This document shows positions 27,482 to 29,795 of a stretch of 33,816 nt of DNA, piece after piece. Both the position numbers and the translations under genes were made by a program. The number at the start of each line of letters is the position of its first letter. Within the stretch, counting starts at the first letter, position 1. The DNA lies in assembly GCA_947165755.1 (NCBI GenBank), contig CAMVBR010000006.1, positions 1 to 33,816 on the forward strand, written 5' to 3'. The notes beneath the pieces are model-generated. The model searched no databases and was not told where the DNA came from. It worked only from the letters and a program-made list of their open reading frames with translations. The stretch comes from an uncultured Clostridia bacterium. GTDB taxonomy: Bacteria > Bacillota > Clostridia > Oscillospirales > Acutalibacteraceae.

Positions 27482-27510
27482 GCCACACGTTTACAGATCG
27501 CTTTGCTTTA
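27470..27510. terminator. two-way terminator between rnhA and spoIVA
   Basis: AGCGATCTGTAA pairs with TTACAGATCGCT around a nine-base loop. The plus strand continues TTGCTTTAT and the minus strand GTTTTTAAG, so it can serve both convergent genes. The left arm includes the stop codon of rnhA. Confidence 0.8.
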
Positions 27511-28986
27511 TATGATGATACAGATCAATCCGTTGCAGCCCTCATTGATCACCCGCTCCAGCGTTTGCTGCAATTTCATACGGGCTTCATTCGGCATATG
27601 CGTCAGCTTTGCCTTCAACCCTTCGTTGACCAGATCGTGCAGGGATTTTCCGAAAATATTTGACTCCCAGATCTTTGAAGGATCTTCCTGAAATCCTTCA
27701 AGCAGGTATTTTACGAGGTCTTCGCTCTGCTTTTCACTTCCCACAATAGGAGCCACTTCCGTTTTTATATCGGCTCGCAAGAGGTGGATCGACGGCGCGC
27801 TCGCCTTCAATCTGACGCCGTATCGGTTGCCCTGTTTTACGATCTCCGGTTCCTCCAGCGAGAGTTCGTCAACAGAAGGCATCACAATACCGTAACCTGT
27901 TGAATTCACCTGCATCAATGCGGCTTCTATCTTTTTATACTTTTTGTTTATCGATGAGAGCGTCTGCAGAACTTCAACCAAACCGGCGTCGTTTGCGATC
28001 TGTATATCGGTAATATCGGATATCATACCATAAAACACGGACTTGTCTATTTCCGCATTTATATATGCCGTTCCTTCACCCAGCTTTACATTTTCCGTGG
28101 AAGAGTATGTAACGCTTTCCATTTTATGCATTTCTTCAACAAACGCGGGAACGTCTCTCACTTTTCCGATCTTCGAACCTGCGGCTCTCACTTCTTTCAA
28201 AAGCAGTTCCTTTTTCGGATCACTCTCTTTAAGGCCTGCATACCATCCGGGAAGCGAGATCACAATTTTTTTCAAGGGAAACTCCATCAGTACGTTCTTC
28301 AGAATTTTTGTGATCTCGGTCTCATCCAGCTTGAGGCAATTTACAGGCAGCACGGGAGAAGCATATTTTTCACTCAACTCAGCGGCAAGCTTCTGTGCGG
28401 CATTGCTGTTTGGGTAAACGCAATTCAAGAGGATCACAAACGGCTTGTTTATCGTTTGGAGCTCATTGATCACACGCTCCTCCGCCTCTTCATATTCTTC
28501 CCTCGGGATCTCGCTGATGCTTCCGTCGGTCGTAACCACCAACCCGATCGTCGCATGCTCATTGATCACCTTTTTCGTTCCGATCTCGGCAGCCATATTA
28601 AAAGGGATCTCTTCTTCAAACCACGGTGTTTTTACCATTCTGGGCGCGTCGTTTTCTATATACCCCAGTGAAGAAGGTACGATATATCCAACGCAATCCA
28701 CAAGCCGAACACGAAAACTCGTGTTGTTTTCAAACGAAAGATTCACGGCGCTTTCAGGAACGAATTTCGGCTCGGTAGTCATGATCGTCCTACCGGCAGA
28801 AGACTGCGGAAGCTCGTCTATCATTCGCTCTCTTGCGAAGTCGGCGGGAACGTTCGGCACGATCAACGTTTCAAAGAACTTTTTAATAAACGTGGATTTG
28901 CCTGTACGCACAGGGCCTACGACGCCGATATAAATATCTCCACCGGTTCTTCTTGCAATGTCTTCATAAATATTTGTGTCTGTCAT
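27508..28986 (-). CDS. spoIVA: stage IV sporulation protein A (spore coat morphogenetic ATPase)
   Basis: SpoIVA polymerises with ATP on the forespore surface and forms the base layer of the spore coat. From the ATG at 28986 the protein is 492 residues, the same length as the Bacillus subtilis protein. The N-terminal part has GVVGPVRTGKSTFIKKFFE (Walker A, about 22-33), and the C-terminus ends in the family-typical NGLICIII. AAAGGGG lies seven bases before this ATG; the track start at 29016 has no such support. A sigma-E-like promoter lies upstream. The gene shows that the organism belongs to an endospore-forming lineage. Confidence 0.97.
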   Translation of the reverse strand: MTDTNIYEDIARRTGGDIYIGVVGPVRTGKSTFIKKFFETLIVPNVPADFARERMIDELPQSSAGRTIMTTEPKFVPESAVNLSFENNTSFRVRLVDCVGYIVPSSLGYIENDAPRMVKTPWFEEEIPFNMAAEIGTKKVINEHATIGLVVTTDGSISEIPREEYEEAEERVINELQTINKPFVILLNCVYPNSNAAQKLAAELSEKYASPVLPVNCLKLDETEITKILKNVLMEFPLKKIVISLPGWYAGLKESDPKKELLLKEVRAAGSKIGKVRDVPAFVEEMHKMESVTYSSTENVKLGEGTAYINAEIDKSVFYGMISDITDIQIANDAGLVEVLQTLSSINKKYKKIEAALMQVNSTGYGIVMPSVDELSLEEPEIVKQGNRYGVRLKASAPSIHLLRADIKTEVAPIVGSEKQSEDLVKYLLEGFQEDPSKIWESNIFGKSLHDLVNEGLKAKLTHMPNEARMKLQQTLERVINEGCNGLICIII

Positions 28987-29446
28987 AATCAAACCCCTTT
29001 GCATTCTTATCGTCAATTAACAATATGAACACCGGACGTGTTTTATGACAGCATAGTATTCCCAAAAAAAGAAAAACCCCGTCGTAGACGAGGTCTGTCA
29101 TGTATAAGAGCTCCCCAAAGTGTACCAATCCATAGAAAGAACGAATTACAGTACATTGGTCGTTTAACGACTTGTAAGTTGAATCGACAATATATCCTGT
29201 ACGGTGCAGAAGTTCCAGCCAATAGCCGGTTTCGCTCGCTTCCTTAAGCGCGATCTCAAGCTTTGATATAAAATCCTTTTTGCCTTGCGCGTAGTTTGCT
29301 TCGAAAATATTCGCGCCGATGGAGGTGCCGGAACGTCCAATCTGATTGGAAATAACGGATTCGTGTTTCGCTTTCAAGTCTTTGACAAGATTGATGATTT
29401 GCACAGAGAAATCCATAGAGAGATCACGCAGTTTTGATTCAGACAT
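28964..29446 (-). CDS. four-helix-bundle protein (23S rRNA intervening-sequence/S23 family) with atypical C-terminal tail
   Basis: From the ATG at 29446 (GGGGG seven bases upstream) the ORF encodes 160 residues. The first 100 match the S23/IVS four-helix family: QIGRSGTSIGANIFEANYA (36-54), FISKLEIALKEASETGYWLE (59-78) and KSLNDQCTVIR. Family members usually end near residue 115-125. Here the frame continues without resemblance, passes through the terminator hairpin at 29063-29093 and the predicted spoIVA promoter, and ends inside spoIVA. This suggests a frameshift or a lost stop near residue 103; a +1 shift there reaches a TGA just before the hairpin. The upstream part of the track ORF (29447-29671) is the palindrome array and is not coding. 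Family members occur in 23S rRNA insertions and resemble the Avd proteins of diversity-generating retroelements. Confidence 0.65.
   Translation of the reverse strand: MSESKLRDLSMDFSVQIINLVKDLKAKHESVISNQIGRSGTSIGANIFEANYAQGKKDFISKLEIALKEASETGYWLELLHRTGYIVDSTYKSLNDQCTVIRSFYGLVHFGELLYMTDLVYDGVFLFLGILCCHKTRPVFILLIDDKNAKGFDYDRHKYL
29020..29046 (-). promoter_or_regulatory. candidate sigma-E promoter of spoIVA
   Basis: The minus strand reads GTCATA, then 16 bases, then CATATTGT. This resembles the mother-cell sigma-E pattern (ATA, 16-18 bases, CATANANT) with one mismatch. The predicted start is about 27 bases before the spoIVA ATG, with AAAGGGG in between. It is placed right behind the terminator of the S23 gene. 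Confidence 0.45.
29063..29093 (-). terminator. intrinsic terminator after the S23-family gene
   Basis: On the minus strand CCTCGTC pairs with GACGGGG (one G-U pair) around TAC, followed by TTTTTCTTTTTTT. It lies inside the open reading frame of the S23 gene as extended by the track, which argues that the true coding end is upstream of it. Confidence 0.75.
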
Positions 29447-29496
29447 GATACCGCCCCCTTCTTGTTTATAATACCCAATGAAACTGGAATCGTAAA

Positions 29497-29673
29497 ATGA
29501 TGTATGCGCCGTCGGCGCAAGTGATGCAGTTCGCTCCGCAAACAGTGATGTATTGCGGCTATGCCGCAAAGTGATGTGATGCGTTCCGCTCACGCGCCGA
29601 AGGCGCACATCACGCACGAAGTGCACATCACTTGCGAAGCAAACATCACGTTCCGCGAGAGCGGAACACATCG
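29497..29673. repeat. array of small palindromes separated by a constant GTGATGT motif
   Basis: Palindromes with different sequences lie at 29505-29519, 29529-29543 (one mismatch), 29553-29569, 29594-29606, 29614-29624, 29632-29642 and 29650-29667, most with three-base loops such as GAA. They are separated by GTGATG(T/C) in the left half and its complement ACATCAC in the right half, so the array switches orientation near 29590. There an unpaired GTTCCGCTCAC looks like half of a broken unit. The right half has exact ACATCAC spacers at 29607, 29625 and 29643 (period 18). It lies directly upstream of the S23-family gene, in its presumed leader or as part of the same element. Confidence 0.8.
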
Positions 29674-29676
29674 TTC

Positions 29677-29717
29677 AAAAAAACGCCTTTTGTCGGTAGA
29701 CAAAAGGCGTTTTTTTT
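29677..29717. terminator. two-way terminator after tRNA-Lys
   Basis: AACGCCTTTTGTC pairs perfectly with GACAAAAGGCGTT around GGTA. Eight Ts follow on the plus strand and seven on the minus strand. It ends the secG-tRNA-Lys transcript two or three bases after the CCA end and separates it from the palindrome array. Confidence 0.9.
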
Positions 29718-29719
29718 GT

Positions 29720-29795
29720 TGGTGAGCCAGCGGGGATTCGAACCCCGGACACCCTGCTTAAAAGGCAGGTGCTCTGCCGACTGAGCTACTGGCTC
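29720..29795 (-). tRNA. trnK-UUU: tRNA-Lys (UUU)
   Basis: The minus strand folds as a full cloverleaf: acceptor GAGCCAG with CTGGCTC, D stem GCTC with GAGC, anticodon stem CCTGC with GCAGG around loop CTTTTAA (anticodon TTT), and T stem CGGGG with CCCCG around TTCGAAT. The discriminator A and a genomically encoded CCA follow at 29723-29720. The 5' end shares two bases with the TGA of secG, so the tRNA is probably cut from the secG mRNA by RNase P. Confidence 0.97.

Follow-up and report, generated by a model that had tools for sequence, protein, structure and literature searches.

A bipartite hairpin array and an adjacent S23-type gene as, most likely, the two halves of an integrase-less mobile element behind tRNA genes in gut Clostridia

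Organisation of the locus

The window analysed here is the whole 33,816-nucleotide stretch of DNA from an uncultured Clostridia bacterium. Sequence reading combined with profile searches revealed, in order along its minus strand, a tRNA-Lys gene, a terminator hairpin, an array of short words alternating with hairpins, a putative promoter and a gene of family PF05635 (S23/IVP; hereafter the IVP gene). The most important anatomical feature of the locus, the tRNA gene, had escaped the first-pass annotation. The features of the locus, including the putative element that starts behind the tRNA, are as follows:

29723..29795, minus: tRNA-Lys gene (Rfam RF00005, 73.7 bits, and ARAGORN); the element starts directly after its 3' CCA
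29677..29716, minus: H0, an 18-bp intrinsic terminator hairpin (18 nt, 100% complementary) in the interval between tRNA and array
29594..29672, minus: left half-array, with words GTGATGT in one orientation and hairpins H1 (29650-29667), H2 (29632-29642), H3 (29614-29624) and H4 (29594-29606); exact words at 29649-29643, 29631-29625 and 29613-29607, with a degenerate first copy at about 29672; the counterpart of Rfam Gut-1
29576..29593, minus: array centre, GAGCGGAACGCATC, able to pair with the first word and the adjoining H1 5' arm; the point at which the words change orientation, with the first inverted copy at 29582-29576
29498..29575, minus: right half-array, with hairpins H5 (29553-29569), H6 (29529-29543) and H7 (29505-29519) and inverted words at 29551-29545, 29527-29521 and 29503-29498; the inverted copies read either ACATCAC, an exact match, or GCATCAC, and that at 29503-29498 is partial
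29468..29496, minus: putative sigma-70 promoter of the IVP gene by sequence reading, TTTACG (29496-29491), 17 bp, TATTAT (29473-29468)
29138..29446, minus: IVP / S23 four-helix-bundle gene, homologous part; start at 29446, the frame going on to 28964
29040..29137, minus: right junction, with the IVP 3' end, cargo and right end apparently deleted up to the spoIVA leader
27508..28986, minus: host gene to the right of the element, which we take from its sequence to be spoIVA-like; marker for locating empty sites

Direct reading of the array (29498-29672) gave seven hairpins with arms that all differ, and the minus-strand positions of the words place a reversal of orientation in mid-array. Variable hairpins with GTGATGT separators that flip had been described in the first-pass annotation, and both points stand, with the qualification that the word is exact in only five places. 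The centre forms an inverted repeat with the first word and H1 arm (29578-29596 with 29654-29672, 89%), the 5' arm of H1 also pairs with the centre at 29581-29591, and the pairing of centre and first arm is arranged likewise at loci L058 and L144. Folding of the stretch as RNA, with the adjacent terminator included, gave -123.8 kcal/mol against a mean of -81.5 for shuffled sequences (z = -9.1). The putative promoter begins directly after the last array word.

The S23-type gene reported next to the array was recovered as such, with matches to PF05635 at 29141-29428 (E 6.6e-26, 92 bits against a curated cut-off of 33.8) and to TIGR02436 (E 5.9e-28, 97.3 bits against a cut-off of 24), but its normal C-terminus is missing: near the 3' end the frame departs from those of L058 and L044 and then enters the spoIVA leader. 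The flank TGTCATAAAACA at the right junction is kept in relatives with an empty site. The window copy is best read as decayed, its right part (the IVP 3' end and any cargo) having presumably been lost by deletion; in L058, its orthologue, the IVP frame is likewise broken. A profile of relatives (A1) matches PDB 2RLD (E 4.9e-41), a five-chain solved relative of IVP, and S23 of Xanthomonas is pentameric (PMC4990558), which suggests by analogy a ring-shaped binder without known catalytic function. PADLOC gave no match for IVP, and a role in defence was rejected.

At the gathering level Rfam recognised only the tRNA in the window, and Gut-1 (RF01706) appeared at a lower threshold, with a match on the minus strand at 29582-29651 (31.8 bits, E 3.3e-4) that falls below the gathering score of 50. 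The passages concerned with Gut-1 in Weinberg et al. (2010; PMC2864571) describe a non-coding RNA seen only in environmental sequence from the human gut, and within those passages there is no mention of a mirrored half, a tRNA, an IVP gene or mobility. The consensus, CAaUGAAAU-hairpin-GUGAAAU-hairpin-GUGAAAU-hairpin-UGAAAU, corresponds to a left half-array of the TGAAAT word family, and both halves of locus L064 match Gut-1, each on a different strand (61.8 and 48.4 bits). Arrays of other word families, that of L064 among them, pass the gathering score; the array of the window counts as a cousin of Gut-1 and not a member. The Gut-1 'RNA' is to be regarded as one half of an element array, and IVP-less Gut-1 elements are abundant.

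Arrays and IVP genes in the genus and its relatives

The genome to which the window belongs has four PF05635 genes, two others of which have similar arrays with the words ATGAAG and TGAATTG, while the fourth is flanked on each side by short tandem repeats. Such genes occur in 24 of the 26 genus genomes, with up to eight per genome. When arrays were scored by a heuristic of our own that counts word-hairpin-word units, at least three distinct units were present within 400 bp upstream of 28 of the 64 genus genes as compared with 3 of 763 control windows, some of which hold genuine gene-less arrays; the heuristic undercounts, as the Gut-1 model showed later. Most of the remaining genus genes belong to what is termed class A here, with inverted short tandem repeats on both sides and without hairpins, recalling rRNA intervening sequences. 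As to background density, 800 kb of two congeners contained eight arrays, three of them with an IVP gene, and an array followed two of ten tRNA genes. The closest IVP homologues, a set of 80 named loci, come from rumen and gut Clostridia, from Oscillospiraceae and Ruminococcaceae assemblies and from one assembly labelled Lentisphaerae, and arrays of at least two units were present in 66 of 74 of these relatives. The suspected link between arrays and S23-family genes is borne out by both sets.

The number and order of words is strikingly fixed across the genus, its relatives and their families, typically ++++----, and the word itself differs by lineage, with at least nine word families of which GTGATGT is one. 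Nearly every word family forms one clade in a tree of 74 IVP proteins, which was built from a short alignment and leaves many forks unresolved, and host families are mixed within the tree (for instance L050 and L145), indicating horizontal transfer. The tracking of word with protein fits recognition of the word by its IVP, a pattern that co-inheritance alone would also predict.

Several individual loci may be recorded here. In the window's own genome, a gene-less array (L097, 1500-1760; G000, contig C53) combines GTGATGT words on the left with GTGAAGT words on the right, and the hairpins at its two outer ends are longer. At L067 the whole bipartite array is tandemly duplicated upstream of the IVP gene (---+++++---+++++). 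In four species (L001, L094, L084, L060) two apparent V-type ATPase subunit genes enclose a class-A IVP gene that is flanked on either side by short, inverted TAATGCG-like repeats.

The Gut-1 model found between 1 and 77 places per genome in all 26 genus genomes and none above cut-off in 14 controls. Across 245 genomes of the order, 105 had Gut-1 hits; both Gut-1 and IVP were present in 90, IVP alone in 26, Gut-1 alone in 15 and neither in 114, corresponding to an odds ratio of 26 (Fisher's test, p 4e-27, with kinship between genomes ignored). Among 50 strong Gut-1 places, 24 lie behind a tRNA or tmRNA gene and only three near an IVP gene, so gene-less copies dominate.

Pairing within the hairpins was examined with 455 spacers (363 distinct) from 97 loci. 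Stems of at least four pairs were present in 81% of spacers, compared to 29% after shuffling and 38% when arms were swapped between loci, and stems of at least five pairs in 55%, 7% and 16%, respectively. The arm-swap control (81% versus 38%) upholds the earlier proposal of selection on pairing with compensated arms. Hairpin loops are mostly C(TNC)G on one half-array and the complement on the other.

Insertion sites, ends and cargo

Same-strand tRNA or tmRNA genes lie within 700 bp upstream of 22 of the 64 genus IVP genes, with none on the opposite strand and none at 79 random positions. Among relatives with enough sequence the proportion is 53 of 65, comprising 17 kinds of tRNA or tmRNA and again none on the opposite strand, and the distance to the IVP gene is usually 210-300 bp in the named relatives. 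Units that are 84-91% identical over approximately 590-650 bp stand behind different tRNAs, and the matches between near-identical units break off at two points, the tRNA CCA at the left end and the stop codon of the IVP gene at the right end. One type of terminator stem occurs behind 25 of 58 element-bearing tRNAs as compared with 1 of 43 other tRNAs. H0, whose TTTTGTCTACCGACAAAA stem is seen again behind other tRNAs, is probably the left end of the element; terminators at tRNA tails are normal, and H0 is assigned to the element because stems are shared and because the H0-type terminator is absent at the empty tRNA-Gly site described below.

Empty sites in relatives, which a mobile module as first proposed should have, were found at two loci. 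At the window locus, only a short spacer separates tRNA-Lys from spoIVA in genomes G009 and G023. The clp-tRNA-Gly-tRNA-Arg locus is an empty site in eight genomes, that of the window among them, where 3-14 nt separate the two tRNAs. A further six genomes carry an insert there that starts precisely at the CCA of tRNA-Gly; in four of them it contains an array, the word type differing between genomes, and in two it consists only of a terminator and a cargo gene. As the empty genomes belong to another sub-clade than the filled ones, the point of insertion is well fixed only at its left side. A similar patchwork of filled and empty sites was observed at tRNA-Tyr over the order. The same unit occurs at different sites, with exact ends and with empty sites in relatives, and the near-identical units at different sites support mobility of the module. 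Thus none of the three outcomes named in the first-pass annotation as refuting its proposal (no link of arrays to S23-family genes, no empty sites, no compensatory changes in the arms) was observed. Some arrays stand behind protein genes rather than tRNAs.

With regard to single loci, the two tRNA-Gly inserts of terminator and cargo gene, without array or IVP gene, are L242 and L246. In other families, L375, L376, L385 and L382 have inverted short-repeat arrays without hairpins behind tRNA-Tyr and are perhaps relatives of class A. Behind a serine-recombinase-like gene, one and the same site is occupied by different IVP elements in the two species concerned (L055 and L061), and at L186 (2700-2733) a duplicated tRNA-Cys 3' tail of the kind that tRNA-targeting integrases leave directly precedes the element.

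At 24 loci the IVP stop codon and the start codon of the cargo gene behind it overlap, mostly in the form ATGA, and the last IVP codons contain the ribosome-binding site of the cargo gene, which varies by locus; the cargo proteins tested included GNAT, NUDIX, nucleotidyltransferase, pyrophosphatase-like, DUF4279 and deaminase proteins, plus unknowns. Downstream of different cargo genes lies a conserved right-end motif of some 60 nt. Gene-less elements have a right-end motif of their own, GAGTTCGAATTCATACGCAAAA..., which comes directly after the array in 10 of 11 occurrences, the eleventh lying at a contig start just before another element. Four gene-less units are stacked in tandem behind one tRNA-Trp at L347, and gene-less arrays often bear words for which the genome concerned has no corresponding IVP gene (TGAAAT in G013 is one case). 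The gene-less copies L340, L360 and L362 retain only the last IVP codons, the look that would be expected of internal deletions. Second arrays, with IVP missing or reduced, are stacked behind the cargo gene at L205 (4000-4350), L086 (3900-4060) and L080 (5850-6090).

No relative was found in viral_contigs, two unannotated gut phage records matched at 53-57% identity, and carriage by phage was rejected; plasmid matches were distant and mostly cyanobacterial.

The proposed element, its rivals and known systems

The comparison of loci shows recurrent insertion at tRNA tails, including repeated independent insertion at a single site, a fixed architecture, empty sites, conserved ends, exchange of cargo, gene-less derivatives, horizontal spread and words that go with the IVP tree. 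The array and the S23-type gene are most likely the two halves of an integrase-less mobile element behind tRNA genes, and very probably the unit is a mobile element of tRNA tails. Its intact form would have tRNA and tmRNA 3' ends as insertion sites and would comprise, behind the tRNA CCA, a terminator hairpin, the bipartite array (four words forward, four inverted, seven hairpins), a promoter, the IVP gene, a cargo gene coupled to the IVP stop codon (in some lineages), and a right-end sequence.

A sigma-70-like promoter with at most two mismatches follows the last word at 50% of 58 loci as compared with 1.7% of shuffles, and in related loci its -35 box abuts or overlaps that word; in the same 58-locus scan, no promoter was found between array and gene in some GTGAAGT elements. 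The intrinsic terminator on one side of the array and the IVP promoter on the other should leave the array out of the IVP mRNA, an arrangement that seems general if not universal. The initial suggestion that the protein acts on a hairpin transcript does not find support in this order of terminator, array and promoter. An array outside the expected transcript favours a role as DNA, be it as a binding site, a cruciform or single-stranded hairpins, and it is likely that the array acts mainly as DNA. Binding of the array words by IVP is, on balance, probable. In the mechanism favoured here, which we rate as fairly likely as a whole, the window holds a decayed mobile element whose IVP, with its pentameric S23/Avd-like fold, would bind the words of its own array as DNA, would repress its own promoter, the -35 box of which abuts the last word, and may prepare the array for movement by marking it or by folding it into a cruciform or into single-stranded hairpins; copies without the gene would be mobilised in trans.

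It is conceivable, though unlikely, that the array is instead transcribed as a non-coding RNA that is bound by IVP and moves or acts via RNA, possibly with a reverse transcriptase in trans. In Rfam, Gut-1 stands as an sRNA candidate (PMC2864571), the fold of the window array is very stable as RNA, and IVP is described as homologous to Avd (PMC10053308), which works with RNA in diversity-generating retroelements. Against this, the array stands behind a terminator and ahead of the IVP promoter, and it is moreover a mirrored pair as expected of DNA sites. Reverse transcriptase genes are present in 16 of the 26 genus genomes, but with none detected in G013, G015 and G002, which have 6, 3 and 8 IVP genes, respectively, the case for this enzyme in trans is weakened. 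The abutment of the -35 box on the last word and the translational coupling of cargo could mean that the binding of words by IVP serves solely for control of the IVP promoter and the coupled cargo gene, as a small module for cargo control or stress, with mobility being incidental and due to ordinary recombination at tRNA genes. However, gene-less arrays are far commoner than IVP genes and have conserved right ends, which looks like transposition in trans and not like regulation, making a purely regulatory or decoy array improbable.

The ends of tRNA genes at the 3' side are classic integrase sites, and together with the duplicated tRNA-Cys tail at L186 this lends some credence to passive carriage of the units, either by unrelated integrases that target tRNA 3' ends or by homologous recombination from tRNA to tRNA. 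The units are nevertheless only ~0.3-1 kb long, have exact ends behind 17 kinds of tRNA or tmRNA and, when gene-less, may be stacked in tandem (L347), and an integrase gene is not apparent in most of the listed neighbourhoods, although a serine-recombinase-like gene precedes L055; such hitch-hiking is considered rather unlikely. No transposase, integrase or reverse transcriptase was found linked to the element. Chance repeats or replication slippage beside an ordinary gene might be entertained for words so short and hairpins so variable, but the recurrence of 4+4 words and seven hairpins across families, the arm-swap control and the site data contradict it, and its probability is negligible.

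To our knowledge, the purpose of S23/IVP proteins has been a loose end since rRNA intervening sequences were described. The element would give an anatomy to this question, to the orphan Gut-1 RNA and to the arrival of accessory genes at tRNA tails in gut Clostridia and, if the mechanism is true, a gene-shuffling element without a recognisable recombinase would be common in the animal gut. By extension, the S23 proteins of rRNA intervening sequences would then be mobility factors of the same kind. The pairing of word and protein is directly testable, as both the protein and its short DNA word change from one lineage to the next. Openly licensed literature yielded no account of array and S23 gene as a pair and, as far as that literature shows, the parts are known and the whole is unreported.

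Among known systems, the intervening sequences (IVS) of 23S rRNA that encode S23/IVP, as in Coxiella and Leptospira, the former with tandem heptamers before the ORF (PMC4990558), resemble the element in protein family, in insertion at a structural RNA gene and in self-complementary ends. However, the IVS lies inside 23S rRNA, with a long terminal stem and its ORF in the loop, whereas the window element lies between tRNA-Lys and spoIVA with both array halves upstream of the gene, and the IVS differs from the element in having no bipartite palindrome array, cargo genes or gene-less copies. Class-A IVP loci in the same genomes, in which short inverted repeats flank the gene, are closer to the IVS. 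REP sequences and BIMEs are dispersed palindromes with a constant tag, many gene-less copies and one associated protein, features that the element shares, but RAYT (TnpA-REP) is a Y1/HUH transposase, while the only gene associated with the element is of family PF05635, whose product is a small four-helix bundle for which we know of no catalytic motif. Integron cassettes are similar in their palindromic sites, in swappable genes with a common 3' motif and in stacking behind one anchor, which in the element is a tRNA 3' end; no gene noticed among the neighbouring ORFs looked IntI-like, and an attC consensus was not recognised. Group IIC introns prefer insertion behind terminator hairpins, a position that the element shares, but its unit has no reverse transcriptase or ribozyme, and Rfam gave no intron match in the element searches. 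Homology of PF05635 with Avd of diversity-generating retroelements has been reported (PMC10053308); unlike in Avd systems, no linked reverse transcriptase, TR or VR was seen. CRISPR arrays combine constant repeats with unrelated spacers that are not self-complementary and with cas genes, whereas the element has palindromic spacers and flipping words, and no cas gene was noticed among its neighbours. Gut-1 covers half of the array only, the rest of the element lying outside its model. The element lacks the defining features tested of IVS, REP/RAYT, group IIC introns and CRISPR, and we see about an even chance that it constitutes a separate mobile class, one that would use tRNA 3' ends as landing sites without a cutting and joining enzyme of its own, in which a pentameric S23/IVP protein would recognise lineage-specific words of 6-9 nt between palindromes, with IVP-less Gut-1 copies as non-autonomous derivatives and an integron-like shuffling of accessory genes.
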